The notes under the pieces were generated by a model, which saw only the letters and a program-made list of their open reading frames with translations, searched no databases and was not told the DNA's origin. 64,000 bases of DNA from Pseudomonas eucalypticola (GTDB lineage: Bacteria; Pseudomonadota; Gammaproteobacteria; Pseudomonadales; Pseudomonadaceae). Shown piece by piece: positions 36,875-63,528 of the stretch; position 1 is the first letter of the stretch; each line of letters opens with the position of its first letter. The stretch spans positions 3,194,501-3,258,500 of the forward strand of contig NZ_CP056030.1 of assembly GCF_013374995.1 (NCBI RefSeq), read 5' to 3'. The translations under genes and the position numbers were made by a program.

Positions 36875-39121
36875 TCAGGGTTTGATCAACTGCATCTGTT
36901 GGCGGTATTCGTCGGTGACTTCCCGCGCCTGGCTGTTACTGGTCACGACACGTGGGGTAATCAGCACGATCAGTTCGGTGCGCGCCTTGGTGCGCCCGGT
37001 CGAACCGAATAACCAGCCCAGGCCGGGAATGGAGCCCAGGTAGGGCACTTTGGCCACGGTCTGGGCATCGTCCTGTTTGATCAGGCCGCCCAGCAGCACG
37101 GTCTGGCCGCTTTGCACCGCCACCTGGGTTGCGATGGAACGCGTGGAAATGCGCGGGTTGACGTCGGTGGCCGTGGTGGTACCGGCATCGCTGACCTGTT
37201 GCTTGATGTCCATGTACACCAGGCCGCCGGGGTTGATACGCGGCGTCACGTCCAGGATGACCCCGGTCTGGATGTATTCCACGCTGCTCAGGGTGGTGTC
37301 GGAGGCGATGGTGTTGACCGTGGTCTGGCTGATGGGGATGTCATCGCCCACCTGGATTTGCGCTTGCTGGTTGTTCATCACCACCAGCGACGGGGCGGAC
37401 AGCACCTGGGTCTTGCCGCTGGACTCAAGGGCGTGGATGGCTATCTGCAGGTTGTTGCTGACGAACGAATAGAACAGCGAATCGGTCGCCCCCAGCCCGG
37501 CCCCGCCACTGCCCAGGGCACCCTGGCTGCCGGACACATCACCGATTCCGGTGGTGGTCGAGTTACCGGCCAGGCGGCCCAGGTACCACTGCACGCCCAG
37601 GTCCAGTTCGCCGGTCAACGACACTTCCAGGATCCGGGTTTCGATCTGGACCTGCATGGGCGGGTTGTCCAGGCGGCGGATGGCGCTCTCGATTTCGGCC
37701 CACTGGCTGGGCCGCGTGCGGATCAACAGCTGGTTGCTGATCTGCTGCGCGGTGATGCGCGTGCTGTCGTCCAGGCTCTTGCGGCCCGAGGCGTCGGCGC
37801 TGGAGGCCTCGGGTTCATCCTGAGTGTCAGTGGGCTGTTGCGGGTTGGCTTGGGCATTGGCCATCTGGCCAAGGCCGTTGCCATTCTGCCCCAGGCCGCC
37901 TGTGCGTGACAGATTGCTCAGGCTGCCGTTGCCCACGCCTGCATAGTTGCTGCCAGCGCCGCCGATGGGGGTACTCAAGGTAGTGGTGGTCAGGCCGGGC
38001 GCCACCTCGGCGGCGGGCTCCTCTTTGATCGCGCCGCTGCCATAGATCTGCCGCAGGTAGCGGGCCAGGTCCTGGGCCTTCATGTTGCGCACGTCGTACA
38101 CGTACAACTGCGGCTCGTTGCCACCGCCGTTGTCGATGGTGCGTATCCACTCGCCCACTTCCTGCAGGTACTGGGGTTGCGAAGAAATGGCCACCACCGA
38201 ATTGGTGCGCTCGATGGGCATGAAGCGCAGCATGCCGGCCAAGGGCGTGCCGCTGTCGGGCCCGAAAACCTTCTGCAGTTCGGGCAGCAGCTCGGCCACC
38301 GTCGCGCGCTGCAGGCCGAACACGCTGATGGACATGCCGCGCAACCAGTCGACGTCGAAGGTGTCGATGCTGGCCTGGTAGTTGGCCAGCTCATCGGCAG
38401 TGCCGGCCATCCCCAATACATTGCGCGCCGGGTCCACCAGCAGGAACGCGTTCTCGCGGGCGAAGGGCTTGAGCAGTTTCTGCATTTCAGCGGCGGAAAT
38501 GAAGCGCAGCGAGAAGAGCCGCACCGACAGCCCGGCGGCGGGTTGACGCATGCCCATGGACGGCACCAGTTGCCCGGCCACCGCCTGGTTGGCCGGCAGG
38601 ATCAGGTAACGGTCACCCTGGCGAATCATGGCGTTGTTGGTCCAGGACAGCAGCGATTCGAGAATGGCCATGGACTGGGCCTTGTCCACCGGTTTGGAGG
38701 TGGAAAACGACACGTCTCCCGTGACGCCCTGGGCGATGCTGTAGTTCTCCTGCAACAGGTCGCCCATGATGGTGTTGATGACCGCGACGATGGACTGGTT
38801 GTTGAAGTTGAACATGACCCCGGCGCTGCCGTCGCCCTGGCGCGGGCCCGCGGCCACCGGCCTGCCCACACTGTTGGCGGGGCCTTGAATGAAGCGCTGG
38901 TTGCCCTGGATGATCTGCCGCTGGCCACCGCTGGGCGCACCGGGCGGGTTGGCTGCCGCGGCCGGCATGGGCGTGGCGGCAACCGGGCCGCGCTGGTCAC
39001 CGGTGCCGCGCAGGGCCTCGCGTTCCAGGCTGTTGTCGGTGTCCAGGCTATGGGGCGGTGTGGTGCAACCGGCCAGGGCCAGTGCGACGAACAGCGGCAG
39101 CAGGGCAAAGGACGACGGCAT
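36875..39121 (-). CDS. gspD: T2SS secretin GspD, module A (lipoprotein)
   Basis: A 748-residue outer-membrane secretin forming the exit channel. The N-terminus has a lipoprotein signal with lipobox LAGC, lipid Cys at residue 19, so it may be targeted without a separate pilotin, as described for HxcQ. Then come N0/N1-N3 domains (IVAVINTIMGDLLQENYSIA in the first, and VVAISSQPQYLQEVGEWIRT later). A low-complexity insert with Gly/Asn/Gln repeats sits near residues 390-460. The secretin core ends with the conserved TGVILDVTPRINPGG and QVAVQSGQTVLLGGLIKQD. The start at 39121 begins the signal; the preceding gene stops 3 bases earlier. Confidence 0.93.
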   Translation of the reverse strand: MPSSFALLPLFVALALAGCTTPPHSLDTDNSLEREALRGTGDQRGPVAATPMPAAAANPPGAPSGGQRQIIQGNQRFIQGPANSVGRPVAAGPRQGDGSAGVMFNFNNQSIVAVINTIMGDLLQENYSIAQGVTGDVSFSTSKPVDKAQSMAILESLLSWTNNAMIRQGDRYLILPANQAVAGQLVPSMGMRQPAAGLSVRLFSLRFISAAEMQKLLKPFARENAFLLVDPARNVLGMAGTADELANYQASIDTFDVDWLRGMSISVFGLQRATVAELLPELQKVFGPDSGTPLAGMLRFMPIERTNSVVAISSQPQYLQEVGEWIRTIDNGGGNEPQLYVYDVRNMKAQDLARYLRQIYGSGAIKEEPAAEVAPGLTTTTLSTPIGGAGSNYAGVGNGSLSNLSRTGGLGQNGNGLGQMANAQANPQQPTDTQDEPEASSADASGRKSLDDSTRITAQQISNQLLIRTRPSQWAEIESAIRRLDNPPMQVQIETRILEVSLTGELDLGVQWYLGRLAGNSTTTGIGDVSGSQGALGSGGAGLGATDSLFYSFVSNNLQIAIHALESSGKTQVLSAPSLVVMNNQQAQIQVGDDIPISQTTVNTIASDTTLSSVEYIQTGVILDVTPRINPGGLVYMDIKQQVSDAGTTTATDVNPRISTRSIATQVAVQSGQTVLLGGLIKQDDAQTVAKVPYLGSIPGLGWLFGSTGRTKARTELIVLITPRVVTSNSQAREVTDEYRQQMQLIKP

Positions 39122-39123
39122 GC

Positions 39124-39681
39124 TCAGTGACCCCCGGGGGCTGGCGACGAAGGCGCGGACCTGTTCAGCAGTATGGACGACGCCGGCGCAGGCACCGGCA
39201 TATTTGGCAAGCGTGGCGAAGGCAATTGCAGGCGCCGGACTTGGCCATCGAGTTCCAGCACCACGGCCTGGGCCTCGATGCGTTGCAAGCGCCAGCCGTT
39301 GGCCAGTTGGCCGCCTTCGCGCAGGCTCAGGTCGTGGCCGTCGGCTTGTTTGAACAGGGCCCGGCGCAACGGGCCATCGATGACCACGCCGGTCAGGCGC
39401 AGGCCGCTGAGATCGGGGGTCGCCCTGGTCATTTGGACGGGTCGGTCGGGTTCGCGGGTGGTGCTGAACAAAGGTGTTTGCCAGGTATTGGCGACCTCCC
39501 CCAGGGACACCGTCGCTGGAACCTCCACGACGGCCACCGCGGCGACCTGGGCCGGGGCGGCCGACGCCGCGGGCCACTCGGGCTGGCTGCCGATGCCCGT
39601 GGCCAACCAGGCCCACAGCCCCGCCAGCAACAGCGCCAGCCCGGCCAGCAGTTGCACCAGGGGTTGGCGCCAGGCCGTCAT
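39124..39681 (-). CDS. gspC: T2SS GspC-like inner-membrane protein, module A
   Basis: A 185-residue bitopic protein. One transmembrane helix at about residues 9-28 (LVQLLAGLALLLAGLWAWL) is followed by a Pro/Ala-rich linker and the homology region (LRLTGVVIDGPLRRALFKQ, then GWRLQRIEAQAVVLELDG). That domain in GspC contacts the secretin. There is no PDZ or coiled-coil C-terminus, so it is shorter than classical GspC; GspN naming would also be defensible. It overlaps gspM by 4 bases. Confidence 0.82.
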   Translation of the reverse strand: MTAWRQPLVQLLAGLALLLAGLWAWLATGIGSQPEWPAASAAPAQVAAVAVVEVPATVSLGEVANTWQTPLFSTTREPDRPVQMTRATPDLSGLRLTGVVIDGPLRRALFKQADGHDLSLREGGQLANGWRLQRIEAQAVVLELDGQVRRLQLPSPRLPNMPVPAPASSILLNRSAPSSPAPGGH

Positions 39682-40280
39682 GGCGTGCCCTGGGCGGGCG
39701 GCGCCGGCGACAGGTAACCGCTGAGCAGCAGGTGTACCCCCAGGCGCCCGGCGCCCCCGCTGGCAGGGGCGTGAGTGGCGCGGCGAACGGTGAGTTCGTC
39801 CACGAACAACAGCGGCTGATCGCTCTCCAGTTGCTGCAACAGTGTGGTCAACGGCTGGATGGCGCAGTCCAGGTCCAGGCTCAGGCGCACCTGGCGGAAG
39901 GGACTGGCCCCCTGATCCTGGGCGACGATCGGCATGCGTTGGGTCAATTGGCAGCCGCCGTTGAGCGCTTCGTTATCCTTGACTCGCTGCGCCACCTGCT
40001 GCATCAGGTCGGCCGCCACCGCGCTGGGGTCGCCGCCGGGCAACAGGCCGCTATCGTCGCCCTGAGCGGCCTGCACGCCCTGCTCCAGCGCCGGGCGCTG
40101 GGCCAACAGGCGCTGGTAACGCAGCCGTTGTTCGGCCAGGGTGTGCATCTGGCTGTCGATGGCCTGCAGCGGCGTGATGAGCAATGGCTCCAGCACCAGG
40201 GCGTAGAAGGCCGCCAGCAGCGCGGCCACCAGCAACCAGGCGCCCACGCGGCGTTCACGGGGTGTCAGGGCGCGGCGCAT
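39678..40280 (-). CDS. gspM: T2SS GspM-like protein, module A
   Basis: A 200-residue bitopic inner-membrane protein. A transmembrane helix near residues 13-33 is followed by a coiled-coil stretch (QMHTLAEQRLRYQRLLAQRP) and a ferredoxin-like periplasmic domain with the GspM-type strand VRLSLDLDCAIQPLTTLLQQ and SDQPLLFVDELTVRR. The ATG at 40280 has GGGAGG 6 bases upstream; an overlapping GTG lies two codons earlier. It overlaps gspL by 26 bases. With GspL it anchors the ATPase to the pseudopilus platform. Confidence 0.85.
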   Translation of the reverse strand: MRRALTPRERRVGAWLLVAALLAAFYALVLEPLLITPLQAIDSQMHTLAEQRLRYQRLLAQRPALEQGVQAAQGDDSGLLPGGDPSAVAADLMQQVAQRVKDNEALNGGCQLTQRMPIVAQDQGASPFRQVRLSLDLDCAIQPLTTLLQQLESDQPLLFVDELTVRRATHAPASGGAGRLGVHLLLSGYLSPAPPAQGTP

Positions 40281-41283
40281 CGCCACCCTCCCCGCGCGCC
40301 TGGGCGCGCATGTAGAAACGTTCGCGGCCGCTGGCTTCGTCCGGCTGGATCACCCCCTGATACTGGGCATCGGCCAGGTGGTTGCAGCCCTTGACCTGGC
40401 CGATCAAGGCGCTGGCATGGCTGCTGAAGCCGGCAATGTCCACTTGGCCTTGAGCAGTGATTTCCAGGCTCTGCAGCCAGGTGTCGGTGGGCAGGCAGCG
40501 GGTCAGTTCACTCAATACCAGGGCGCGGCCCGGCTGGGCGAGCCGGCGCCGGGCCAGGAACTGCGCCGCGCCCTGGGCGTCGTCCAGGCGCTGGCGCAAG
40601 GCCGCTACCTCCGCGGCCTGGGTGCGCAGGCCCTGGACATCCTGGACCATGGCGGCCAGCGCGGTCTCGCGGTTGTGCAGCCACTGCCACGCCACCGCCA
40701 CCAGCAGCGCCAGGCACAGCACCGTCAGCCCCCCGGGCAGGCGCCTGCCGCGGCTACGGTTGGAGGGTGCGTGGGGCAGCAGGTCCAGGCCCATGGGCTG
40801 ACCGTCGTCGTCCAGCACATCGATACCCGCCAGCACCACGCCGCGGGCGCTGCAGGTGTCCAGGCAGTGCTGCAACCACTCACGGCGGATCACGGCCAGG
40901 GTCACCCACACCTGTTCGGTGTCCATGCCCTCGCGGCGCACCACGTAATGCACCTGGTCGGCGCTGAATGGGGTGAAGCGGTCCAGCTCGAAATCCATCA
41001 CCCGGTGCAGGTCGCGGGCCGCCGCCAGCGGCAGGCCCAAGCGCTGGGCCAGCACGCGGTCAGCCGGCAGTTCGAGGATCAGCCGCTCGCCCTCTGGGAT
41101 CTCGCCAGGCAACGGCCAGGCGCAGCGCCGCGGCGGCCGGCCCGGCTGCAAGCCATGCCGCAACCCGGCGGGCAGGCTGGCCAGCAGCTCCTGGCCCCAG
41201 GCGTGGCAAAAGACCTGGGCGCCGCTGCCCTGCCAGCGGCTTTTGAACCGTTCCTGCCAGAGCCACAAGGACACTGCACGCAT
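40255..41283 (-). CDS. gspL: T2SS GspL-like protein, module A
   Basis: A 342-residue inner-membrane protein with a cytoplasmic actin-like/PilM-type part (about residues 1-190, including MDFELDRFTPFSADQVHYVV), a transmembrane helix near 200-222 (GGLTVLCLALLVAVAWQWL), and a PilN-like periplasmic domain (LTRCLPTDTWLQSLEITAQG). GspL recruits the GspE ATPase. It lies between gspK and gspM in the usual order. Confidence 0.86.
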   Translation of the reverse strand: MRAVSLWLWQERFKSRWQGSGAQVFCHAWGQELLASLPAGLRHGLQPGRPPRRCAWPLPGEIPEGERLILELPADRVLAQRLGLPLAAARDLHRVMDFELDRFTPFSADQVHYVVRREGMDTEQVWVTLAVIRREWLQHCLDTCSARGVVLAGIDVLDDDGQPMGLDLLPHAPSNRSRGRRLPGGLTVLCLALLVAVAWQWLHNRETALAAMVQDVQGLRTQAAEVAALRQRLDDAQGAAQFLARRRLAQPGRALVLSELTRCLPTDTWLQSLEITAQGQVDIAGFSSHASALIGQVKGCNHLADAQYQGVIQPDEASGRERFYMRAQARGEGGDAPRPDTP

Positions 41284-41293
41284 GGGCCACGCC

Positions 41294-42013
41294 TCACTCG
41301 TTGTAGCGCACCACCCGGAAGGGCCGCGCGCCGTTCTCCATGGGTGACAGTAGCACCGTGCTGTCGATCACGGCGGTGAACCCGTCGGGCAGTTGCGCCT
41401 GGCTGCGGATACTTAGCACCTGGCCGGCGTCCCCGGCCAGGGCGGCGACGCGGGGCAGGCCCAGGGCACGCTGCAGCGTCGGGGTGGCGAATGCCGGGTC
41501 GGGGCTTTCCTGGCCGCTCCACACGGTCACCTCGGGCACCAGCGCCTGGTACAGCGCGGTGCTCATGCCGGGCAGGTCACGCAACTCCTCCAGGGCACGC
41601 AAGGGCGGCTGGTTGTCGCTGCGGCGCTGGTCCAGGGCCGCGGCCAGTGCCGAGCCTTGTCCAGCGCCCAGAGCCGCGACCAGGCGAGCGAAATCCCCGG
41701 CCGCTCCAGCATTGAGGTCCAGCTTGCCGCGCTCGCTGCGGACACTGACCTGCAGCACGGCATCGTCGAAACGCAACGTTTGTACACGACCATCGGCCAC
41801 CCAGCGCTGCTGCGGGTCGGTGTCAACCAGCGCGCGCACTGCCAGGTTCAGCCCGGCTTCGGCCGCCAGGCTGGCGCGGGTATGCTGCGTTTGCCACAGG
41901 CCCAGGCGCGCCTGCTGGCGCACCTGCACTACCAGGGTGCCCAGCAGCATGGCGAGCAGGGCCATGGCCCACAGCACCAGCAACAGGGCCATGCCCCGTT
42001 GTCGGCGGTTCAT
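41294..42013 (-). CDS. gspK: T2SS minor pseudopilin GspK, module A
   Basis: A 239-residue minor pseudopilin, the tip subunit with GspI and GspJ. The prepilin cleavage site is MNRRQRG followed by MALLLVLWAMALLAMLLG. As is normal for GspK, the +5 Glu is absent. The family block SERGKLDLNAGAAGDFARLV and the helical insert with DLPGMSTALYQALVPEV are present. It is shorter than the 300-plus residues of most GspK proteins. Confidence 0.89.
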   Translation of the reverse strand: MNRRQRGMALLLVLWAMALLAMLLGTLVVQVRQQARLGLWQTQHTRASLAAEAGLNLAVRALVDTDPQQRWVADGRVQTLRFDDAVLQVSVRSERGKLDLNAGAAGDFARLVAALGAGQGSALAAALDQRRSDNQPPLRALEELRDLPGMSTALYQALVPEVTVWSGQESPDPAFATPTLQRALGLPRVAALAGDAGQVLSIRSQAQLPDGFTAVIDSTVLLSPMENGARPFRVVRYNE

Positions 42014-42627
42014 GGTGCCCCCTGGGTTTCACTGAGGTCCAGGCGCAGCGCCACCACCTGGGCCACCCAGGGCACCGGTCCGTCACTGTCCAGTTCAATG
42101 CGCACCGCCTGGGGCAAACGCGCCGGCCACGGCCAGCGGGGTAGCCAGGCGGTGGGCTGGCCGCGCTCGTCACGGCCGCGGTAGCTCAGGCGCAGATCGC
42201 GCACGTCGTCCAGCAACACCTGGGGCTGGCCCCAGGGCCGCGCGACGCCACGCAGCAACTGATCGAAGCGCACTTGCAAGGCCTGGTGGCCGCCCTGCTC
42301 CACCAGCTCAAGCGTGTGCACCTGCAGGCCGCCCCCCAGGGCGCTGTTGAGGCCCGCGGCAAACACCAGGCGCTGACGTTCGCCGTCGAACACCCGTTGC
42401 TGATCGCCCTGAGCCGGCAACTCCACCGGCAAGGCGCCTTCAAGGGCGCGGTGCAGGAAGTTCTGGCTGGCGCGCAGGGCCTCCAGGCGTTGGCCATAGT
42501 GCTCGCCTTTGAGGGCTGCGCGGTTGGCCCCCAGCAATGCGCTGCCCAGCAGGCCCATCAGCACCCCCAGCAGGACCAGCGCGAAGAGCATTTCGAGCAA
42601 GGTGAAACCGCTGGCCGGGCGTTTCAT
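42010..42627 (-). CDS. gspJ: T2SS minor pseudopilin GspJ, module A
   Basis: A 205-residue pseudopilin. The cleavage motif is MKRPASG/FTLLEMLFALVLLGVL, with Glu at +5. The later YRGRDERGQPTAWLPRWPWP and LPQAVRIELDSDGPV fit GspJ. The ATG at 42627 starts the leader, overlapping gspI by 4 bases. Upstream in-frame sequence belongs to the neighbouring gene. Confidence 0.89.
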   Translation of the reverse strand: MKRPASGFTLLEMLFALVLLGVLMGLLGSALLGANRAALKGEHYGQRLEALRASQNFLHRALEGALPVELPAQGDQQRVFDGERQRLVFAAGLNSALGGGLQVHTLELVEQGGHQALQVRFDQLLRGVARPWGQPQVLLDDVRDLRLSYRGRDERGQPTAWLPRWPWPARLPQAVRIELDSDGPVPWVAQVVALRLDLSETQGAP

Positions 42628-42995
42628 CGGCTGGCGTCCAGGGCCGGCCGAGCTTGCACCGCCAGGGTGCTGACACGCAGCCGGCGCCGGCCTTCGCGCA
42701 CGTCCAGGTCCAGGCGCCACAGGGGCAGCAGCGTGGCCGGCCCTGGCTCGCGGGTGACGCGCAGGCGCCAGCGCAGTGCGCCATCACGGCCGTTGCGCTC
42801 GCCGGCCTGCAGGCGCTGGCCGCGCTGCTCGTCCATCAGGCTGCGGGCCGCCAGGCTCAGGCGGTCACTGGCGCGTACTTGCTCCAGGGTGCGCGCCGCC
42901 TGCCCGAACGCCACCAGCAGCACCGTGCAGCCTAGCGCGAACACCGCCAGCGCGGCGAGCATTTCCACCAGGCCAAAGCCCCTCGCGCGCTTCAT
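42624..42995 (-). CDS. gspI: T2SS minor pseudopilin GspI, module A
   Basis: A 123-residue pseudopilin with leader MKRARG/FGLVEMLAALAVFALG; Glu is at +5 and Phe at +1. The segment ASDRLSLAARSLMDEQRGQR matches the GspI block before the second strand. The ATG at 42995 overlaps gspH by 4 bases. GspI nucleates the pseudopilus tip with GspJ and GspK. Confidence 0.89.
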   Translation of the reverse strand: MKRARGFGLVEMLAALAVFALGCTVLLVAFGQAARTLEQVRASDRLSLAARSLMDEQRGQRLQAGERNGRDGALRWRLRVTREPGPATLLPLWRLDLDVREGRRRLRVSTLAVQARPALDASR

Positions 42996-43450
42996 GGCTG
43001 GGCCCGCAGGCGCACGCTGCCGGTCAACCAGCCGATGTCGATACGCCACTGGCGCGTGCCGCGCTGCACCAGCAGGTGACCGCCCGTGGAACTGCCGTCG
43101 GGAAAGAAGGCCACAGCCGCACCCAGTTCGGCGGCCGTGGTCAACTGCACCCCCCAGTCGGCAGGCCAGCGCCCCGGCGCCTGGCCAGGGGCCTGAAAGC
43201 GATGGCCCGCCAGGTCGAAGCGTACTTGCCGGGGCTGGCCGCTGAGCACCGACTGGGTGCGCGCCTGACGCAGCGCACCGACGATATCGCCCAGCGCCTG
43301 GCGCTCCCGCGCAGCGGCCATGCCGTGCCCCAGGCCAACACCCAACACCCCCAGGGCCACGGCCATCAGGGCGATGACCACCAGCAGTTCCAGCAGCGTG
43401 AAACCGGCGGCTTGGCGCAGCGCTGGGAGGGGCAAAGGACCGCCTTTCAT
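42992..43450 (-). CDS. gspH: T2SS minor pseudopilin GspH, module A
   Basis: A 152-residue pseudopilin with leader cleavage after MKGGPLPLPALRQAAG and then FTLLELLVVIALMAVALGVLG. The globular domain has ALRQARTQSVLSGQPRQVRF and FFPDGSSTGG, typical of GspH. The leader is longer than usual. It overlaps gspG by 4 bases. Confidence 0.9.
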   Translation of the reverse strand: MKGGPLPLPALRQAAGFTLLELLVVIALMAVALGVLGVGLGHGMAAARERQALGDIVGALRQARTQSVLSGQPRQVRFDLAGHRFQAPGQAPGRWPADWGVQLTTAAELGAAVAFFPDGSSTGGHLLVQRGTRQWRIDIGWLTGSVRLRAQP

Positions 43451-43857
43451 TCCCAGTTCCCCAGGTCAGCGTTATAGCCCTCGCCGCCCGGCTGGCCGTC
43501 CTGGCCATAGAAAATCAGGTCGAAACTGCCGTGCTGGCCGGGAAAGCGGTAGCCGAAGGGGTGGCCGAATGGGTCCTTGAGGTCCGAGGGCTTGGCATAA
43601 GGGCCCGACCAGCGGCTGTCGCCGGCAGGGCGGTCCACCAACTGTGCCAGATCCTTGGGCGGCGCGCCCATGTCCAGGGCATAACTCTCGACCTTCATCG
43701 ACAGGCTGGCCAGTTGCGCCTTGCCCGCGCCGTACTTGCCCTTGTCGACGTTGCCACCCACCTGGCGCACGACAATGGTGGCGACAATGCCCAGCAATAC
43801 GATGACGGCGAGCATTTCCAACAGGGTGAAACCGCGAGCACGAGGCAACGGCAGCAT
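43447..43857 (-). CDS. gspG: T2SS major pseudopilin GspG, module A
   Basis: A 136-residue major pseudopilin that polymerises to push substrate out. Leader MLPLPRARG/FTLLEMLAVIVLLGIVA with +5 Glu. The GspG signature KYGAGKAQLASLSMKVESYA and the C-terminal calcium-site loop FYGQDGQPGGEGYNADLGNW are intact. It is strikingly similar to its module B copy: the stretch of about 50 residues after the cleavage site is the same up to the first loop. Confidence 0.93.
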   Translation of the reverse strand: MLPLPRARGFTLLEMLAVIVLLGIVATIVVRQVGGNVDKGKYGAGKAQLASLSMKVESYALDMGAPPKDLAQLVDRPAGDSRWSGPYAKPSDLKDPFGHPFGYRFPGQHGSFDLIFYGQDGQPGGEGYNADLGNWE

Positions 43858-43867: not shown

Positions 43868-45073
43868 TCAGATATTACTGGTCAGGCTCATCAGCGGCAG
43901 CATGATGGCCAACATGATGAAGGCCACCAGCACCGCCATGACGATGGTCAGGGTCGGCACCAGGGCCGCCAGCAACCGGGCGATGCTGCGGCGGGCTTCG
44001 GCGTCGAACACTTCGGCGACCTTGAGCAGCATCGTGTCCAGCTCACCGGCTTCCTCCCCCACCTGGATCATCTGCAAGGCCAGGTCGGGCAGTTGGTTGT
44101 CATGGGCCAAGGCTCGGGCCAACGAGCCGCCGCCCTTGACCTTTTCGGTGGCCGCCTGCAACTGGGCGCGCACAGCGCGGTTGGCCGCCACGTCGCAAGT
44201 GATCTTCAGCGCCGCGAGCAGCGCTACGCCGTTTTCCAGCAGTGTCCCCAAGGTGCGCGCCACGCGCGCCGCTTCCAGGCGCCGCACCAGGTTGCCCAGC
44301 ACGGGCCAGCCCAGCAGGCGTCGGTCCCAACGCAGGCGCCTGGCCGGCTCACGCAGCGCACGGCGACCCAGCAGCCCGGCGACGATCAACGCTGCCAACA
44401 CCATCAAGCCAAACCGATTGAAGAACTGCCCCAGCCCCAGAATCACCTCGGTCACCAACGGAATGGGCACGCCCAGGTCCTGAAAGATCGGCACGAACTG
44501 CGGCACCACATAGGCCAGCAACAGCACCAGTGAGCCCAGCACCCCCACCACCAGGAACGCCGGGTAGATCAGCGCATTGATGACCTCGCCCCGCAACGCC
44601 TGGCTGCGTTCCAGGTAGTCGGCCAGTTGCCGCAGGCTGTCCGGCAGCGCCCCGCCCGCCTCCCCGGCCCGCACCAGGCTCAGGTACAGCGGGGTAAACG
44701 GGTCGGGCTCCAGGGCCAGCGCCGCCGACAATGGCTGGCCGGCCTGAACCCGCTCGCGCACTCGGCCGATCAGGGCACGCACCGGCGCCTGGGCCTTGCC
44801 CGGCGCGTTGACGAGAATGCCCAGGGCGCGGTCCAGCGCCAGCCCGGCGGTGAGCAGAATCGCCAGCTGTTGGGTGAACGCCGCCAGCGCCGCAGTGCCC
44901 AGCCCGCGGCGCGGCGACCACGCCAGCCACCGGCCACCCGCCGGTTCGATGTGCAAGACCAGGGCACCCTGGCGTTGCAGTTGCAGCGCCAGGGCCTGGC
45001 GATCGGCGGCGTCCAGCACCCCTTGGCGGGCACTGCCATCGCTGTCCAGCACGCGGTAATGAAAACGAGCCAT
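43868..45073 (-). CDS. gspF: T2SS inner-membrane platform protein GspF, module A
   Basis: A 401-residue polytopic protein with two cytoplasmic GspF domains and three transmembrane helices. Domain 1 has FTQQLAILLTAGLALDRALG; domain 2 has EAARVARTLGTLLENGVALL and IQVGEEAGELDTMLLKVAEV. The C-terminus MLPLMSLTSNI is the same in module B. The ATG at 45073 is preferred to a GTG nine bases upstream. GspE stops 9 bases before it. Confidence 0.93.
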   Translation of the reverse strand: MARFHYRVLDSDGSARQGVLDAADRQALALQLQRQGALVLHIEPAGGRWLAWSPRRGLGTAALAAFTQQLAILLTAGLALDRALGILVNAPGKAQAPVRALIGRVRERVQAGQPLSAALALEPDPFTPLYLSLVRAGEAGGALPDSLRQLADYLERSQALRGEVINALIYPAFLVVGVLGSLVLLLAYVVPQFVPIFQDLGVPIPLVTEVILGLGQFFNRFGLMVLAALIVAGLLGRRALREPARRLRWDRRLLGWPVLGNLVRRLEAARVARTLGTLLENGVALLAALKITCDVAANRAVRAQLQAATEKVKGGGSLARALAHDNQLPDLALQMIQVGEEAGELDTMLLKVAEVFDAEARRSIARLLAALVPTLTIVMAVLVAFIMLAIMLPLMSLTSNI

Positions 45074-45082
45074 GGCGTTCAC

Positions 45083-54628: not shown

Positions 54629-55344
54629 TCTTGCCAGCGCAGGACCCGATATGGCCTGGCGCCCTCCTTTGTCTGGGTCAACATCAGGGTGACCTGCAAC
54701 GTGGCGTGGTAGCCGTTGGGCAAGCGCGCCTCACTCTGCACGGTGAGGATCGGCCCAGGGTCGGCGTCGGGCTCACGCACCGCAGGCAACGCCAGTGCCC
54801 GGGCCAGCGGTGCCGGGGCCAATGCCGGGTCGGGTTGGGCCTGGCCGGACCATACGGTGATCCACGGCACGGCACAGTGGTACAGCGCGAAGCCCATGCC
54901 CGGCAGCTCGCGCAATTCGTCCAGCGTGCGCAGCGGCACAGGGCCCTGGCGCAGATGTTCAAGCGCTTGCAGCAACGGCTCGATGGCCTGGGGCGCGGCT
55001 CCGCAGGCCTTGAGCAGGCGGCTGAGGTCCGGCGCCGAGGCGGCGTTGAGGTCCAGCTTGCCGCGCTCGCTGTACAGGCTGACGCGCACGTCGGCATCCC
55101 CCAGCCGCAATTGGTGCGGCTGGCCGTCAGCGGGCCAGCGCGCGTGGGGATCGCGGGCCTGGCGCGCCATCACCGCCTGGGCCACCCCGGCCTCGGCAGC
55201 GAACACCGCCTGGGTATGGCTGGCTTGCCACTGGGCCTGACGATGCTGCACCTGCACGGTGGCGGCCAGCGCGCCGAGCAAGGTTGCCAGCACCGCGAGC
55301 ACCCACAGCACCACCAGCAGGGCGACGCCGCGCTGGGCCGTCAT
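54625..55344 (-). CDS. gspK: T2SS minor pseudopilin GspK, module B
   Basis: A 239-residue tip pseudopilin, exactly as long as the A copy. Leader MTAQRG is followed by VALLVVLWVLAVLATLLGAL, without a +5 Glu as usual. The block SERGKLDLNAASAPDLSRLL and ELRELPGMGFALYHCAVPWI match GspK. It overlaps gspL by 4 bases and gspJ by 4 bases. Confidence 0.89.
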   Translation of the reverse strand: MTAQRGVALLVVLWVLAVLATLLGALAATVQVQHRQAQWQASHTQAVFAAEAGVAQAVMARQARDPHARWPADGQPHQLRLGDADVRVSLYSERGKLDLNAASAPDLSRLLKACGAAPQAIEPLLQALEHLRQGPVPLRTLDELRELPGMGFALYHCAVPWITVWSGQAQPDPALAPAPLARALALPAVREPDADPGPILTVQSEARLPNGYHATLQVTLMLTQTKEGARPYRVLRWQE

Positions 55345-55940
55345 GGCGTGGCCTCGCTGGCCAGGTCCAGCCGCAGGCTGACCTGCTCGGTCACCCAGGG
55401 CACCGGCCCACGCAATCGGGCCTCGATGCGCACGGCCCGGGGCAACCGCTCCGGCCAGGGCCAGGTGGCCAGCCAGCCGCTGTCCTTGCCCAGGGGCGCC
55501 AGGCCGCGATAACTGAACGTCACCTGCTCCACGTCGGGCAGCAGCACCTGGGGTTCGCCAAACGGCTGCAGGGTGGTGCCTTGCAGGCGCGCCAGGCGAA
55601 CCCGCAACCGGTGGTGCTCCAGGCTCACTTGCTGCTGGAACAGCCCGCCCCCCACCGACTCGGGCAGCGGCGCGTAGAAACTCAGGCCATGGGCCTGGCC
55701 GCTGAACACCGCTGGCTTGGCCGCCGCCTCCCCCGCCGCCACCGGCAGCGCTTGGCTGATGGCGCGGCGCAGGTAGCCCTGGGCCGCGCGCAGATCGTCC
55801 AGGCGCTGGCTGAACCGTTCGGCCTTGGCCGAAGCGCGGTTGGCGCTGACCAGCGCAGTGCCGACAAGGCCCAGCAAGATGCCGAGCAGGCTCAGCACCA
55901 CGAGGATTTCCAGCAGGGTAAAGCCGCGTTCAGCCTTCAT
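55341..55940 (-). CDS. gspJ: T2SS minor pseudopilin GspJ, module B
   Basis: A 199-residue pseudopilin. Leader MKAERG/FTLLEILVVLSLLGILLG with +5 Glu. The later YRGLAPLGKDSGWLATWPWP and LPRAVRIEARLRGPVPWV parallel the A copy. The ATG at 55940 starts the leader; the gspI stop overlaps it by 4 bases. Confidence 0.89.
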   Translation of the reverse strand: MKAERGFTLLEILVVLSLLGILLGLVGTALVSANRASAKAERFSQRLDDLRAAQGYLRRAISQALPVAAGEAAAKPAVFSGQAHGLSFYAPLPESVGGGLFQQQVSLEHHRLRVRLARLQGTTLQPFGEPQVLLPDVEQVTFSYRGLAPLGKDSGWLATWPWPERLPRAVRIEARLRGPVPWVTEQVSLRLDLASEATP

Positions 55941-56299
55941 GGCGCCAGCCCCGCGCTGCGTACTTGCAGCGTGCTGAAGCGAGCTTCGCGCCCCTCGGCC
56001 TTCAGGCGCAGGTCCAATTGCCACAAACGGTCGGGGCCGGGTACTGAAGGCACCGCGGCCACGTCCAGGGTCCACTGCACGTCATCCCACTGCCCTTGGC
56101 TGCGCCCTGGCGCCAAGGGCCCATCGCCCAGGGCGTCCATCAATGAACGGGCCGCCAGGTTCAGCCGGTCGCTGCGCTGGGTGTGCTGCAAGGCGCGGGC
56201 ACTCTGGCCAAATGCGCCCAACAGCACGGTGGCGCACAGCGCCAGCACCGCCAGCGCCGCGAGCATTTCCAGCAGCGTGAAGCCCCGTTGGTGCGTCAT
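55937..56299 (-). CDS. gspI: T2SS minor pseudopilin GspI, module B
   Basis: A 120-residue pseudopilin with leader MTHQRG/FTLLEMLAALAVLALCATV. The conserved segment RSDRLNLAARSLMDALG is seen. In the A copy the +2 and +4 residues differ (FGLVE against FTLLE here). It overlaps gspH and gspJ by 4 bases each. Confidence 0.89.
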   Translation of the reverse strand: MTHQRGFTLLEMLAALAVLALCATVLLGAFGQSARALQHTQRSDRLNLAARSLMDALGDGPLAPGRSQGQWDDVQWTLDVAAVPSVPGPDRLWQLDLRLKAEGREARFSTLQVRSAGLAP

Positions 56300-56724
56300 G
56301 GCAGGTCGCGCAGGCGCACGGCGCCGGTCAGCCAGGCCACGTCCACGCGCCAACGACGCGGGCCCTGGGTGATCAGCACGTTGCCACCGCTGGCGCCGCC
56401 GTCGGGGTAGAACTCGAACCCGGCGCCCAGGCCTTCGGCGGTCTGCACGCGCACCTGCCACTCCTTGGGCCAGTGCACCGGTGGTTTGCCCGGGGCCTGC
56501 ACGGTGCGCTGTTGCAAGTCGAAACGGGCGCGGGCGGGCTGCCCGGTGACGATGGCCTGCACCCGCGCTGCGCGCAGCGTGTTCACGACCAGGGCCAAGG
56601 CCTTGCGCTCACCGGCGCTGTGCAGCCCGCGTTGCAGGCCATAGCCCACCAGGCCCGCAGCCACGCCGATCAGCACGATCACCACCAGCATTTCCAGCAG
56701 GGTGAAGCCCCGGGCCCTGTGCAT
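56296..56724 (-). CDS. gspH: T2SS minor pseudopilin GspH, module B
   Basis: A 142-residue pseudopilin with a short leader MHRARG/FTLLEMLVVIVLIGVAAGLV, about ten residues shorter than the leader of the A copy. The globular domain has VNTLRAARVQAIVTGQPARA and FEFYPDGGASGGNVLITQG. The stop of gspG lies 5 bases before its ATG, so here the genes do not overlap, unlike module A. Confidence 0.9.
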   Translation of the reverse strand: MHRARGFTLLEMLVVIVLIGVAAGLVGYGLQRGLHSAGERKALALVVNTLRAARVQAIVTGQPARARFDLQQRTVQAPGKPPVHWPKEWQVRVQTAEGLGAGFEFYPDGGASGGNVLITQGPRRWRVDVAWLTGAVRLRDLP

Positions 56725-56729
56725 CAGCG

Positions 56730-57149
56730 TTATTCCCAGTTGCCCAGGTCAGCGTTGTAGCCGTCGCCGCCGGGTTGGCCGTCCTGGCCATAGAAGATCA
56801 GGTCGAAGCTGCCGTGCTCACCGGGAAAGCGGTAGCCGAAGGCATGGCCGAACGGGTCTTTGAGGTCCGACGGCTTGGCGTACGGGCCGGCCCAGTTGCC
56901 GCCGTTGCTCGGCTTGGTCACCAACTGGTTGAGGTTGGCCGGCGGCGAACCCACGTCCAGCGCGTAGCTTTCCACCTTCATGCTCAGGCTGGCCAGTTGC
57001 GCCTTGCCGGCGCCGTACTTGCCCTTGTCGACGTTGCCGCCCACCTGGCGCACGACGATGGTGGCGACGATGCCCAGCAGCACGATCACCGCGAGCATTT
57101 CCAGCAAGGTAAAACCGCCCTGGCGACGGGCCGACTTCATGGTTTTCAT
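56730..57149 (-). CDS. gspG: T2SS major pseudopilin GspG, module B
   Basis: A 139-residue major pseudopilin. Leader MKTMKSARRQGG/FTLLEMLAVIVLLGIVA. After the cleavage site it is the same as the A copy for about 50 residues, and its C-terminal loop FYGQDGQPGGDGYNADLGNW differs by one residue. This is by far the best conserved pair between modules, so cross-polymerisation is conceivable. The loop DVGSPPANLNQLVTKPSNGG differs from A. Confidence 0.93.
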   Translation of the reverse strand: MKTMKSARRQGGFTLLEMLAVIVLLGIVATIVVRQVGGNVDKGKYGAGKAQLASLSMKVESYALDVGSPPANLNQLVTKPSNGGNWAGPYAKPSDLKDPFGHAFGYRFPGEHGSFDLIFYGQDGQPGGDGYNADLGNWE

Positions 57150-57162
57150 GGGGTTGGTTCCT

Positions 57163-58356
57163 TTAAATGTTACTGGTGAGGCTCATCAGCGGCAGCATGA
57201 TGGCGAGCATGATCACGGCGACCATCACGGCCATGACCACGGTAAGGCTGGGCACCAGAGCAGCGAGCAGGCGGTCGATGCCGCGCTTGGCTTCGACGTC
57301 GAACACCTCGGCGACTTTCAGCAGCATGCTGTCCAGCTCGCCGGCCTGTTCGCCGACGTCGATCATCTGGATGGCCAGTTCCGGCAGCAGCGGTTGCTGG
57401 CCAAACGCGCTGGCCAACGTGCCGCCACCCTTGACCCACTCGGTGGCGTGTTCGACCTGGGCGACGACGGCGCGGTTGCTGCACACCTGGCGCACGATCT
57501 GCAGCGCCTGCAACAGCGCCACGCCGTTGCTGAGCAAGGTGCCCAGGGTGCGCGCCAGGCGGGCGGCTTCGATGCGTTGCAGCAACGGGCCGATGACCTT
57601 GATGCGCAACAGACGCCGGTCGTTGCGCTGGCGCCGGGCCGGGTCGCGCAGGGCGATTGCCGTGCCCCAGACGACCACGATGAGCCCGGCAAGCACCATC
57701 AGGCCCCAGGCGCTGAGGAACTCGCCCAGCGCCAGAATCACCTGGGTAATCAGCGGAATCGGCACGCCCAGGTCGCGGAAAATCGGCACGAACTGCGGCA
57801 CCACGTAAGCCAGCAGCAGGGCCAGGGAACCCAGCACGCCGACGATCAGGAAGGCCGGGTAGATCAGTGCGTTGATCACTTCGCCGCGCAGGGTCTGGCT
57901 GCGCTCCAGGTAATCGCTGAGCTGGCGGAGGGTGTTTTCCAGGGCGCCGCCGGCCTCGCCGGCGCGGACCATGCTGATGTACAGGGTGGAGAACTGCCCG
58001 CCCTCCTCTTCCAGCGCCTGGGACAAGGGCTTGCCGGCTTTCACCTGTTCGCGGATGCGTTCGATCAGGGCGTGGGCCTTGGGCGCCTGGGTCTGCTTGA
58101 GCAGGATGCCCAGCGAGCGTTCCAGGGGTTGGCCGGCGCCCAGCAGGGTCGCCAGTTGCTGGGTGAAGCTGACCAGGGCGGCGCCGTTGAGGGCGACGCT
58201 GCCACGGGCCATGCGCTGGCTGCCCGCTTCCAGTTCCAGCACCAGCCAGCCGCGCGCCTGCAACTGGGCCAGCGCGACACGGTCATCGGTGGCTTGCAGG
58301 TTGCCTTTCTGCGCAGTGCCGTCAGCGTCCAGGGCGCGGTAGCGAAACGTAGCCAT
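57163..58356 (-). CDS. gspF: T2SS inner-membrane platform protein GspF, module B
   Basis: A 397-residue polytopic protein with the two GspF domains (FTQQLATLLGAGQPLERSLG and EAARLARTLGTLLSNGVALL) and three helices, ending MLPLMSLTSNI as in A. The stop of gspE is 1 base before the ATG at 58356. It links the ATPase and pseudopilus. Confidence 0.93.
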   Translation of the reverse strand: MATFRYRALDADGTAQKGNLQATDDRVALAQLQARGWLVLELEAGSQRMARGSVALNGAALVSFTQQLATLLGAGQPLERSLGILLKQTQAPKAHALIERIREQVKAGKPLSQALEEEGGQFSTLYISMVRAGEAGGALENTLRQLSDYLERSQTLRGEVINALIYPAFLIVGVLGSLALLLAYVVPQFVPIFRDLGVPIPLITQVILALGEFLSAWGLMVLAGLIVVVWGTAIALRDPARRQRNDRRLLRIKVIGPLLQRIEAARLARTLGTLLSNGVALLQALQIVRQVCSNRAVVAQVEHATEWVKGGGTLASAFGQQPLLPELAIQMIDVGEQAGELDSMLLKVAEVFDVEAKRGIDRLLAALVPSLTVVMAVMVAVIMLAIMLPLMSLTSNI

Positions 58357-58357
58357 G

Positions 58358-60067
<1,710 letters not shown>

Positions 60068-60149
60068 TACACTTCTTGGCGATAGGCCGGTGGCGGCCAG
60101 CTCGGTATTAGCGGCGTAGCCAGACATTGATGTTTTTCAAATACCGCTC

Positions 60150-60254: not shown

Positions 60255-60276
60255 AAACCTAACTGCAATTAGGTTT
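60255..60276. promoter_or_regulatory. Operator-like palindrome 2, module B
   Basis: AAACCTAA (60255-60262) and TTAGGTTT (60269-60276) are perfect 8-bp arms with a 6-base spacer, in the middle of the divergent AT-rich region. The size is right for a dimeric regulator. Confidence 0.45.
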
Positions 60277-60580: not shown

Positions 60581-60829
60581 ATGAAACAGCTCATATTGCC
60601 TGTCATGGGCACTGTACTTCTGTGCGCCCAGAGTTTTGTCGCCTGCGCGGCAGATTCAACGTCTGCTGCCAGCACTTCTTCCATGCAGGAAGTTCGCCAG
60701 CAGATTGAAGCCAAGCGCGACCAGATCTCCGGCGTCGACCGCGTGCAGACCGCCACCCAGACCGCCACCTCGGTGGATGACGCCCCGATCGTCACTGACG
60801 ACGCCCCTGCCCAGGAGCAGCAGCAATGA
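60581..60829 (+). CDS. Small secreted protein coupled to GH3-B
   Basis: An 82-residue protein with a signal peptide (MKQLILPVMGTVLLCAQSFV then ACAAD). A Cys near the cleavage site leaves open a lipoprotein reading (FVAC is a poor lipobox). The mature part, about 58 residues, is Ala/Thr/Asp/Gln-rich, with a short helix MQEVRQQIEAKRDQI and a tail of acidic repeats ending in Gln. No known domain. Its stop overlaps the ATG of the GH3-B gene by 4 bases, so the two are translated together. I do not recognise it; a chaperone, anchor or secretion accessory for GH3-B is possible but unproven. The ribosome site is weak. Confidence 0.75.
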   Translation: MKQLILPVMGTVLLCAQSFVACAADSTSAASTSSMQEVRQQIEAKRDQISGVDRVQTATQTATSVDDAPIVTDDAPAQEQQQ

Positions 60830-63528
60830 ACCCTACCACCCTGCGACGTACCCTGGGCCTGAGCCTGTTGGCCCTGGGTGTCGCCCAGGCGCACCTGGCC
60901 CTGGCGGCCACCGCTACCCCCGCCACCGGCAACGCCGTGGAAGCGCGGGTCAGCTCGATCCTCGACAACATGAGCACCTCGGAGAAGATCAACTTCACCC
61001 GCGTCGACGACGGCCACATGATCCCCAAGCTGACCAAGTGGGGCATCCAGGGCACCGTGGCCTACGATTCGTCCATGGGCGTGCACGTCAACAACGCCAC
61101 GTTTGGCGCCCAGTACCCGTCGCAGTCGGCCCTGGCCGCTACCTGGAGCATCAACCGCGCCAAGGAATTCGGCCAGGCCATCGCCTACGAAACCCGTATT
61201 TCCGGCGGCCAGCAAATGCTATCCCCAGGCGTCAACCTGTACCGCACCCCCTACGGCGGCCGTTCGGCTGAGTACCTGAGCGGCGAAGACCCGTTCCTGG
61301 GCGCCGTGCTGGCCCCGGCCGTGGTCAACGGCATCCAGGTGCAAGGCATCCAGGCCAGCGGCAAGCACTTCCTGGCCAACGAACAGGAAGCCAACCGCCA
61401 GGCGGTGAACGTGCACGTGGACGAGCGCACCCTGCGCGAACTGTACCTGCCGGGCTTCGAGTCCATGGTCAAGAACGCCAACGTGGCGTCGATCATGTGC
61501 GGTTTCAACAAGGTCAACGATGATTACGCCTGCGAAAACCACCACCTGATCACCGACGTGCTCAAGGGCGAATGGGGCTATCAAGGCATGGTCATCAGTG
61601 ACTTCAATGCCATTCACGATGCCTTCAAGGGTGCCTGGGCCGGCACCGACATCGACATGCCGTCGGGCCTGCAATTCACCGAAGCCAACCTGATGCCGCT
61701 GTTGTGGAGCGGCCAGTTGACCCAGAACGTCATCGACGACAAGGTCAAGCGCAACCTGCGTGGCATCGTCAGCTACGACCTGCAGGAAAACCTCAACACC
61801 GCCCAGACCCTGGAACACACCGAGTACGGCGCCAAGGCCGCGCTGGACACCGCCCGCGAAGCCATCGTGCTGCTGCGCAACGAAAACACCTCGGCTGGCG
61901 CGCCACTGCTGCCGCTGGCCAAGTCGGCCAAGGTCGCGGTCATCGGCGACTGGGCGCTGGAAGCCCCGGGCTCGCCGTTCGGTACGGCCAACTCGCCCCC
62001 CAACAGCTACGTGACTGAACTCAGCGGCCTGCAGCAATTGGCGTCGAGCAGCAGCAACGTCACCTACCTGCCCGCCCTGAGCCTGAACCCCAAGGCCTCG
62101 GTGTGGTACCAGCCGTCCACTGGGCAGAACAGCATCAGCAACTCGGGCGTGAAGGCCGAGTACTACGCCAACACCAGCTTCTCCGGTGACCCGGCGCTGA
62201 CCCGTGTCGAGCCGGGCGTGAACCTGAACTGGACCACCAGCACCAACGTCACCGACGCCGGTACCACCACGGTCTCGGGCTTCACCCCGACGGCGGGTGC
62301 GTTCTCGGCCCGCTTCACCGCCACCATCAAGCCGACCGTCAGCGGCCCGCAGATCTTCAAGGTACGCGCCGACGGCCCGTACAAGCTGTGGGTCAACGAT
62401 GAGCTGGTGCTGCAGAGCGATGGCGTGGCGTACTCCAGCGACGTGGTCAACGCCCTGGTGACCTCGGCAAAGACCTCGGCCCTCACCGCTGGCAAATCCT
62501 ACAGCGTGAAGCTCGAGTACCAGCGCACCGCGGGCAACTTCACCCCGGCCCTGGGCGGCCTGGCGGGCGTGCAGATGAGCTGGTCCGCGCTCAAGCCGCC
62601 GGCAGACCTGGCCAACTACGACGCTGTCGTGGTCGCCGTCGGTACCAACTATGAGAACGAAGGCGAAGGCTCGGACCACGGTTTCGACCTGCCCGACCAA
62701 CAGGCTGACCTGATCACCGCGGTGGCCAAGGCCAACCCCAACACCATCGTGGTGATGCACGGTGGCGGCGTGTCCAACATGCAGCCGTGGGCCAACAAGG
62801 TCGGCGCCAGCCTGCAAGCCTGGCTGCCAGGCCAGCAAGGTGGTCAGGCCCTGGCCGAGATCCTGTATGGCAAGGTCAACCCATCGGGCAAGCTGCCGGT
62901 CACCATCGACAAGAAAATCGAGGACAACGCCAGCTATGCGTCCTACCCGGACCCAGCGCAATACCGCGGCACCAACGCGCTGACCGACATGACCTACAGC
63001 GAAGGCCTGTACCTGGGCTACCGCGCGTACGACAAGAACAACACCAAGCCGCTGTACCCGTTCGGCTTCGGTCTGTCGTACACCACTTTCGCCTACAGCG
63101 ACATGAAGCTATCGAGCAACGTGCTGACCCCGGGCGCCACCGTGAACGTCAAATTCACCGTGACCAACACCGGCAGCAAGGCTGGCTTCGAAACCGCGCA
63201 GTTGTACGTGCAGCCAGTGAACCCGGCGGTCGCCCGCCCGGAGAAAGAGCTCAAGGGTTTTACCAAGGTGTACCTCAAGCCTGGCCAGAGCAAGACCGTG
63301 AGCATCCCGCTGGACTCGCGTTCGCTGGCTTACTACGTGGACAACACCGACAGCTGGAACGTCGATGCTGGCAAGTACAAGATCCGCGTGGGCACCAGCT
63401 CCGCCGACCTGAGCCTGAGCCAGACCCTGACCACCCTGTACGCCGAGCAACTGACCACCCGCGACAGCAACCCGTTGCCCGCGCCACTGCAGAAAGCCGT
63501 GCAGGTGTCGGCTTCGCAGCGTTACTGA
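60826..63528 (+). CDS. Secreted GH3 beta-glucosidase with PA14 domain, module B
   Basis: A 900-residue GH3 enzyme with a Sec signal (about 28 residues, ending LALAA). The catalytic Lys-His pair is at 180-181 (SGKHFLANEQE). Nucleophile Asp259 is in VISDFNAIH, at the same position as in the A enzyme. The putative acid/base is Glu614 in NEGEGSDHG. The PA14 insert spans about 440-583 (FKVRADGPYKLWVNDELV). A fibronectin III-like domain follows, then the tail motif SNPLPAPLQKAVQVSASQRY at the extreme C-terminus. It is translationally coupled to the small secreted protein and divergent from gsp operon B, so it is the probable cargo. The exact glucoside bond is not predictable. Confidence 0.92.
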   Translation: MNPTTLRRTLGLSLLALGVAQAHLALAATATPATGNAVEARVSSILDNMSTSEKINFTRVDDGHMIPKLTKWGIQGTVAYDSSMGVHVNNATFGAQYPSQSALAATWSINRAKEFGQAIAYETRISGGQQMLSPGVNLYRTPYGGRSAEYLSGEDPFLGAVLAPAVVNGIQVQGIQASGKHFLANEQEANRQAVNVHVDERTLRELYLPGFESMVKNANVASIMCGFNKVNDDYACENHHLITDVLKGEWGYQGMVISDFNAIHDAFKGAWAGTDIDMPSGLQFTEANLMPLLWSGQLTQNVIDDKVKRNLRGIVSYDLQENLNTAQTLEHTEYGAKAALDTAREAIVLLRNENTSAGAPLLPLAKSAKVAVIGDWALEAPGSPFGTANSPPNSYVTELSGLQQLASSSSNVTYLPALSLNPKASVWYQPSTGQNSISNSGVKAEYYANTSFSGDPALTRVEPGVNLNWTTSTNVTDAGTTTVSGFTPTAGAFSARFTATIKPTVSGPQIFKVRADGPYKLWVNDELVLQSDGVAYSSDVVNALVTSAKTSALTAGKSYSVKLEYQRTAGNFTPALGGLAGVQMSWSALKPPADLANYDAVVVAVGTNYENEGEGSDHGFDLPDQQADLITAVAKANPNTIVVMHGGGVSNMQPWANKVGASLQAWLPGQQGGQALAEILYGKVNPSGKLPVTIDKKIEDNASYASYPDPAQYRGTNALTDMTYSEGLYLGYRAYDKNNTKPLYPFGFGLSYTTFAYSDMKLSSNVLTPGATVNVKFTVTNTGSKAGFETAQLYVQPVNPAVARPEKELKGFTKVYLKPGQSKTVSIPLDSRSLAYYVDNTDSWNVDAGKYKIRVGTSSADLSLSQTLTTLYAEQLTTRDSNPLPAPLQKAVQVSASQRY

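Follow-up and report, generated by a model that had tools for sequence, protein, structure and literature searches.

GH3-linked T2SS modules of Pseudomonas eucalypticola: layout, ancestry, probable cargo and gene conversion

The type II secretion system (T2SS) known as Xps has the gene order E-F-G-H-I-J-K-L-M-(C/N)-D, and Hxc, with LapA, is a Pseudomonas T2SS with a narrow cargo. Several T2SSs may be found in one Pseudomonas genome, some of them narrow in cargo, as described for Xcp-UxpB and Xcm (PMC4509608). In P. paraeruginosa PA7 the extra T2SS Txc lies on a genomic island with the gene of its cargo, CbpE, close by (PMC12369383), and Loper et al. (2012) reported a "novel" fourth T2SS, unlike Xcp and Hxc, in plant-associated Pseudomonas of Sub-clade 3 (PMC3390384). 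Recurrent concerted evolution has been described for 26 prokaryotic genes, mostly encoding complex subunits, whose paralogs are more alike within species (PMC6053082). Our comparisons with these four papers are by description.

The locus considered here lies in a window of 64,000 nucleotides of the Pseudomonas eucalypticola chromosome (contig NZ_CP056030.1, positions 3,194,501 to 3,258,500), which holds two T2SS operons, each beside a divergent gene for a GH3-PA14 enzyme. It is like the Xps of Xanthomonas in gene order and in the GspM of module 2, an XpsM equivalog (NF040576, 151.2 bits against a cut-off of 60), with Pfam T2SSM_b matched in both modules. Unlike Xps, the window modules are paired with divergent GH3-PA14 genes and belong to a set of three paralogs in their own genome, and GspF2 scores 422.6 bits against the XpsF (NF047826) cut-off of 650 while passing the generic GspF cut-off; GspE2 scores 614.6 against the TIGR02533 cut-off of 630.25. 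As described for Txc-CbpE, a probable cargo gene adjoins an extra T2SS, although the cargo of Txc is a chitin-binding protein and its control is by a neighbouring two-component system (PMC12369383). The genome has more than one T2SS, as do those with Xcp and Xcm (PMC4509608) and those with Hxc, but contains no further GspE above 41% identity. The Sub-clade 3 system is likewise an extra T2SS in plant-associated Pseudomonas, and the excerpt names lipase, esterases, phosphatases and pectate lyase, but not GH3, as its candidate cargo (PMC3390384). Finally, core paralogs of modules 2 and 3 are more alike within than between species, like the genes of PMC6053082, whereas in our case homogenisation is confined to a segment of the operon, and the words "secretion" and "pilin" are absent from the main text of that paper. 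T2SS-cargo neighbours (PMC12369383) and concerted evolution of prokaryotic paralogs (PMC6053082) are already known. In the open-licence literature, mostly as titles and the starts of abstracts, we found neither a T2SS-GH3 linkage nor conversion among T2SS operons, nor the combination of three GH3 cassettes, exchanged cargo and a homogenised core.

Layout of the window modules and of a third copy

Both window modules carry gspE-F-G-H-I-J-K-L-M-C-D on the minus strand and a divergent GH3-PA14 gene on the plus strand, and stand head to tail. The preliminary description had reported this exact arrangement twice, and Pfam and homology confirmed the same order, strands and divergent enzyme gene in both copies, each with the full T2SS core set (E, F, G, the H-K pseudopilins, L, M, C and D) in one operon. 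Such an order, shared by two homologous 12-gene units, is far beyond chance.

On the minus strand of module 1 lie the secretin gene gspD1 (36875..39121; Pfam Secretin, Secretin_N and N0), gspC1 (39124..39681; a weak T2SSC match below cut-off, 51% to gspC3 over 102 residues), gspM1 (39678..40280; T2SSM_b type by Pfam), gspL1 (40255..41283; T2SSL and PilN), gspK1 (41294..42013; weak T2SSK below cut-off, 50-57% to K2/K3), gspJ1 (42010..42627; T2SSJ and N_methyl), gspI1 (42624..42995; N_methyl, homology to I2/I3), gspH1 (42992..43450; GspH), the major pseudopilin gene gspG1 (43447..43857; T2SSG), gspF1 (43868..45082; T2SSF) and the ATPase gene gspE1 (45083..46831; T2SSE and MshEN). GH3_1 (47429..50182, plus strand; Pfam GH3 N, GH3 C, PA14 and Fn3-like) has an N-terminal export signal as judged by eye. 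Several longest ORFs of the modules start too far 5' and their starts were corrected, that of GH3_1 to the ATG at 47429; the longest ORF of gspD1 extends to 39616, and its more likely start is at 39121, where a lipoprotein-type signal seems to begin.

Module 2 comprises, again on the minus strand, gspD2 (50262..52484; a secretin by Pfam, with NCBIfam TIGR02517 above cut-off), gspC2 (52481..52999; weak T2SSC below cut-off, 40-41% to C1/C3), gspM2 (52996..53604; the XpsM equivalog), gspL2 (53579..54628; Pfam T2SSL), gspK2 (54625..55344; NCBIfam GspK below cut-off, 50-56% to K1/K3), gspJ2 (55341..55940; N_methyl, with T2SSJ slightly below cut-off), gspI2 (55937..56299; N_methyl and homology), gspH2 (56296..56724; Pfam GspH, its first part inside the converted tract described below), gspG2 (56730..57149; Pfam, 99% protein and 99.8% DNA identity to gspG3), gspF2 (57163..58356; Pfam T2SSF, mostly converted with gspF3) and the ATPase gene gspE2 (58358..60127; Pfam T2SSE), with the GH3-PA14 gene GH3_2 (60826..63528; Pfam) on the plus strand. 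Both secretins bear lipoprotein-type signals, judged from the lipobox motif. Self-piloting secretins begin with lipoprotein signals, and the module secretins begin with what look like signals of that kind.

Pfam matches at or above the curated cut-offs were obtained for D, M, L, H, G, F, E and GH3-PA14 in both modules and for J in module 1. C and K of both modules were below cut-off or unmatched, J2 was just below, and I showed the N-methylation motif only; the identities of gspC, gspK, gspI and gspJ2 rest on position and on homology between the modules. Both enzymes have the GH3 N and C domains, PA14 within the C domain and an Fn3-like end, and GH3_1 is the probable cargo of module 1, as GH3_2 is of module 2. 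The gspL/gspM overlap of 26 bases, also remarked on earlier, is present in both modules (gspM ATGs at 40280 and 53604); it is 20 bases in the third module. Compared as proteins, modules 1 and 2 share 70% identity for E, 66% for F, 86% for G, 51% for H, 49% for I, 45% for J, 50% for K, 44% for L, 47% for M, 40% for C, 67% for D and 44% for GH3. Two other features of the window are a small ORF of 82 residues with a signal-like N-terminus just 5' of GH3_2 (60581-60829, plus strand; 4-base overlap with the GH3_2 start) and an RHS-repeat protein of 1681 residues (8198-13243, plus strand).

A third module of the same layout lies about 1 Mb from the window pair (C1:4210062-4223312). Its proteins are 78% (E), 65% (F), 85% (G) and 65% (GH3) identical to those of module 1, and 73% (E), 91% (F), 99% (G), 80% (D) and 46% (GH3) to those of module 2, identities that fit no simple scheme of a tandem pair plus an outlier. 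A small, exported-looking protein of 72 residues is encoded 5' of gspE3 on the operon strand (L023:14870-15088, minus). The three modules appear to be the only T2SSs of this genome, since its remaining GspE-like matches are at most 41% identical and NCBIfam assigned one further ATPase to TfpB and one further secretin to PilQ; no T2SS beyond the three was found in the genome. At a weak secretin match (L006, 36.5 bits) no module gene was matched by tblastn. A further secretin and a further ATPase are, we presume from their sequences, CpaC-like and PilB-like, respectively.

Separate ancestry and juxtaposition of the modules

Trees of chosen representatives (52 rows for GspE, 55 for GH3 and 44 for H-M; quick trees built without bootstrap) place modules 1, 2 and 3 in separate clades, each with orthologs in other pseudomonads. 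Module 1 groups with loci L181, L216 and L133, its clade including Pseudomonas sp. T1-3-2, strain L18 and G169 (L181). Module 2 groups with loci L134, L215, L182 and others, its clade including T1-3-2, L18 and G170 (L182) and, in the E and GH3 trees, M47T1; a tight five-row module-2 group has support 85 in the E tree. The module 3 clade includes T1-3-2 and L18, with M47T1 added in the E and GH3 trees. In the GH3 tree GH3_1 (47429-50182; compared with L222 and L133) joins the L18 enzyme (support 100) in preference to the T1-3-2 enzyme, whereas GspE1 clusters with its T1-3-2 counterpart (support 99); GH3_1 may have recombined on its own.

In L18 the T2SSs are dispersed, with module 3 on scaffold C3, module 2 at C2:429-439 kb and module 1 at C2:502-512 kb, about 62 kb from the module 2 region. 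The right-hand flank of GH3_2 is common to the window genome, L18 and M47T1 (about 2 kb, 77.9-78.7%), and the left flank of the window tandem (31229-36336) matches L18 C2:448-453 kb, beyond gspD2 (84%). No T2SS or GH3 gene occurs in the 8.7 kb of L18 from gspD2 to this match, part of which is found to the right of the tandem in our genome. From these flank matches, module 1 stands between gspD2 and the genes that lie beyond gspD2 in L18. We conclude that the module pair is a juxtaposition of separate lineages and not a tandem duplication. Did module 1 move in, in the line of the window genome and T1-3-2, or out, in the L18 line? In both the E and the GH3 tree L18 and M47T1 form a sister pair among the module-2 rows, which leaves either direction. 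In the proposed history module 1 would have come between gspD2 and its old neighbours, or have left that site in the L18 line.

Module 1 of L18 is itself divided. No GH3 gene occurs in the 5.8 kb upstream of its gspE, nor in most of the 17 kb before, and its GH3_1 ortholog (88%) is on a different scaffold, C14, 1.2 kb from the scaffold end; that 1.2 kb, where the spacing in the window would place a gspE, contains none. The module-1 spacer, the only one compared, contains a 68-base stretch that recurs (82%) beside the L18 GH3_1 gene; no recurrence was found beside the L18 gspE1.

Gene conversion of the gspF-gspG core

Modules 2 and 3 share a tract of about 1.5 kb (56660..58176, minus strand) that comprises gspF from about codon 60, gspG and the start of gspH, with a fuzzy right border between 56755 and 56632; roughly the first 60 codons of gspF lie outside it, as does the body of gspH. 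Identity is 97-100% inside the tract and 63-77% in its flanks: in 150-base windows it passes from 63-66% to 97-100% and back to 66-77%, mismatches being dense up to 58177, next found at 58060 and dense again from about 56660 to 56632. Over whole genes, DNA identity between the two modules is 73.5% for E, 93.0% for F, 99.8% for G, 76.5% for H and 81.3% for D, and 52-67% in I-M and C. At third codon positions the two copies agree by 97-100% inside the tract, compared with 56-70% in E, in D and in the remainder of H, and therefore selection at the protein level alone does not explain the similarity. The longest run of polymorphic sites at which modules 2 and 3 agree spans 123 sites, and 265 in T1-3-2, whereas no run in 5000 shuffles exceeded 16 and 17 sites, respectively. 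A run of 15 sites at which modules 1 and 3 agree, against at most 12 in shuffles, makes small exchanges with module 1 possible.

The corresponding tract in T1-3-2 runs, in window coordinates, from 58195 to 56599. In 1501 tract bases the two copies differ at 16 positions within the window genome and at 6 within T1-3-2, and orthologs differ between the genomes at 32 and 36. With sites ordered as modules 2 and 3 of the window genome followed by modules 2 and 3 of T1-3-2, there are 23 AABB and no ABAB sites inside the tract and 2 AABB and 2024 ABAB sites outside it; against L18 the tract has 99 AABB, no ABAB and 4 ABBA sites, with 50 changed in one L18 copy alone. Paralogs are therefore closer within than between genomes, with sharp borders and with silent sites included, and gene conversion, repeated, of the gspF-gspG core of modules 2 and 3 is the conclusion. 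In L18 the identity of the pair is 95.3% for the F part and 73.5% for E, from which we place the last conversion in that strain further back. When 24 AABB sites of a slightly wider tract were polarised with eight outgroup sequences, 15 had changed in T1-3-2 and 7 in the window genome, with 2 ties, and with L18 alone the figures were 7, 7 and 10 undecided; a separate conversion in each of the two lineages is likely.

M47T1 has two contigs that break off inside gspG and two that do so among the first 36 codons of gspF, shortly before the tract border, which is as expected, indirectly, of an unresolved repeat. N gaps or contig ends lie in or beside the gspF-gspG tract in L217-L220 (M47T1) and in L214 and L215 (L18), and draft genomes may hide such conversions. 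We also considered homogenisation of F-G as a habit of two-module genomes and rejected it, because the tract is absent from three other such genomes (G167, G429 and G169), whose module pairs are 67.6-77.8% identical in gspF, 76.0-79.5% in gspG and 72.9-78.9% in gspE. The extent of the tract may reflect which part of the machine can be exchanged without harm, or simply where the two modules are alike enough for recombination.

Linkage, cargo exchange and proposed working

Divergent T2SS-GH3 linkage is common in Pseudomonas. Our survey covered 298 genomes, the present one included, with GH3 and GspE alignments as queries, the best three GH3 and best four GspE candidates per genome being scored and the GspE threshold of 900 bits being set after the scores had been seen. 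Under these terms there were at least 78 GH3 matches in 51 genomes and at least 86 GspE matches in 78 genomes. The linked arrangement, which the preliminary description had from this locus only, recurs: 59 of the 78 GH3 matches lie divergently within 3 kb of a gspE. All 51 GH3-bearing genomes have a gspE and at least one divergently linked pair, and the 228 genomes lacking a gspE of 900 bits or more gave no GH3 match. The reverse does not hold, as only 51 of the 70 genomes with such a gspE have GH3, and tblastn found no GH3 in any of the 27 fetched loci around a gspE without linked GH3 (L104-L130). The 19 unlinked GH3 matches (of 78) occur in 12 genomes, every one of which also has a linked module, and the seven of these genes that were fetched (L187-L193) are closest to GH3_2. 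Among these best candidates, three linked modules occur in two genomes, ours and G197, and two in four genomes. G197, which we take to be Pseudomonas sp. T1-3-2 (NZ_CP093280.1), has the tandem and the third module on a single chromosome contig; its assembly is rated 9% contaminated. In the best 80 of 144 GH3 loci from named genomes, an opposite-strand gspE was present in the fetched DNA of 49 and absent from 31, two of which (L025 and L058) have less than 1.2 kb of upstream sequence, too short to judge; among the matches listed, the loci from outside Pseudomonas with usable flank (L057, L059, L062, L066 and L089) had no gspE in the fetched DNA. The partnership is real, yet not exclusive.

GH3 type has been exchanged between T2SS lineages elsewhere in the genus, with GH3_2-type genes in the same divergent position beside T2SSs of several lineages. 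In the H-M tree cargo type changes at least four times, and a single clade of GH3_2-linked machines is rejected (AU p = 5.8e-8; 38 rows); the E and D trees show at least three changes each, with one-clade p values of 0.008 (E, 36 rows) and 0.0008 (D, 32 rows). These p values are optimistic, the cargo-exchange groups having been named after the trees were seen. Rows without GH3 were left out of the counts of changes, the E and D tests were run without L186 (a long branch), L042 (identical to L171), L067 and L068, and the D test additionally without four rows that were too short or missing. The clear cases are L172/L056/L061 and L171/L042, while L027/L037 is a mosaic, with the module-2 clade for E and elsewhere for H-M. 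GH3_1 and GH3_3 share a clade of the GH3 tree that is distant from the GH3_2 clade. GH3_2 itself, whose nearest named match is from T1-3-2 (99% identical), is below every cut-off in an NCBIfam scan, the best models being arabinopyranosidase, glucosidase and xylosidase, and the best of its solved relatives is named beta-glucosidase, others xylosidase. At locus L174 (16621, plus strand; genome G374) a second secretin-like match, 77% to gspD2, lies on the other strand beyond GH3_3. The idea that the most diverged subunits are the cargo-specific ones was rejected as evidence: subunits with the greatest difference between modules 1 and 2 also evolve most quickly among orthologs (Spearman 0.74), so that their divergence by itself does not establish cargo specialisation.

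Our overall reading, to which we give a probability of about 0.72, is that the window holds two of three T2SS-GH3 cassettes, of separate ancestry, with exchanged cargo and a converted F-G core, brought together by juxtaposition and each probably the main exporter of its neighbouring GH3 enzyme. The likeliest working is ordinary T2SS export: GH3 would enter the periplasm by its N-terminal signal and fold there, the folded enzyme would leave mainly through the neighbouring T2SS, and the divergent spacer would let cargo and machine be expressed together. We infer export by the neighbour from the linkage, the triple pairing within one genome and the one-way co-occurrence.

Could the pair instead have arisen, as first proposed, by an ancient duplication in place, followed by divergence with one cargo each? 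The same order, orientation and 26-base overlap in both modules speak for it, but modules 1 and 2 fall in different groups with orthologs elsewhere, no T2SS subunit of module 2 is closer to module 1 than to module 3, the dispersed third module shares the order and an L/M overlap, and synteny places module 1 between gspD2 and its neighbours; with trees and synteny against it we rejected duplication in place, and give it virtually no credence. For the tract, it seems very improbable that one donor segment was transferred into both modules or that an assembly collapsed there. Such a view gains from the gaps and contig ends in the L18 and M47T1 drafts, but our genome and T1-3-2 each have the chromosome in one contig (6.4 and 7.6 Mb), their 16 and 6 differences per 1501 bases include lineage-specific changes, and the same tract occurs in three lineages, each with a different sequence.

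It is possible, though unlikely, that the T2SS is a general exporter and GH3 a hitch-hiking or co-regulated neighbour rather than its main cargo. The T2SSs without GH3 in 19 of 70 genomes are consistent with this, and they should serve other cargo there. Several of them (L106-L116) have a common set of neighbours 5' of gspE, presumably a LacI-like regulator, a TonB receptor and a monooxygenase-like gene, and others (L120 and L121) adjoin, 5' of gspE, a gene for a protein with a twin-arginine-like start, a possible other cargo that we take to resemble phospholipase C; GH3 genes also lie away from a T2SS in 12 genomes. A mere neighbour, however, would not be expected never to occur without a T2SS (51 of 51 genomes), to be kept by each of three copies in one genome, or to survive in L18, as both halves of module 1 do, after separation. 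The earlier proposal of two dedicated systems, each with its own glucosidase, accordingly stands in part: the pairing with GH3 has long been kept and the linkage recurs, but dedication is doubtful when gsp operons without GH3, which that proposal had itself named as contrary, do exist and cargo type is not strictly inherited. We regard as decidedly doubtful the further idea that the three secretons form one modular machine, in which a common inner core (the membrane part of GspF, GspG and the anchor helix of GspH) would be kept interchangeable by conversion under selection, E, the minor pseudopilins, L, M, C, D and GH3 would be module-specific, and subunits would mix to form hybrid secretons.

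The basis on which a T2SS selects its cargo has long been an open question, and the three cassettes offer a natural experiment on it, with three near-parallel machines and three related enzymes in one cell, where one part of the machine is identical in two modules and the rest has diverged, and where cargo has been swapped between machine lineages. The origin of such arrays is decided by synteny and trees, not by the look of a tandem repeat. Swaps of subunits between the modules could reveal which subunits read the cargo.
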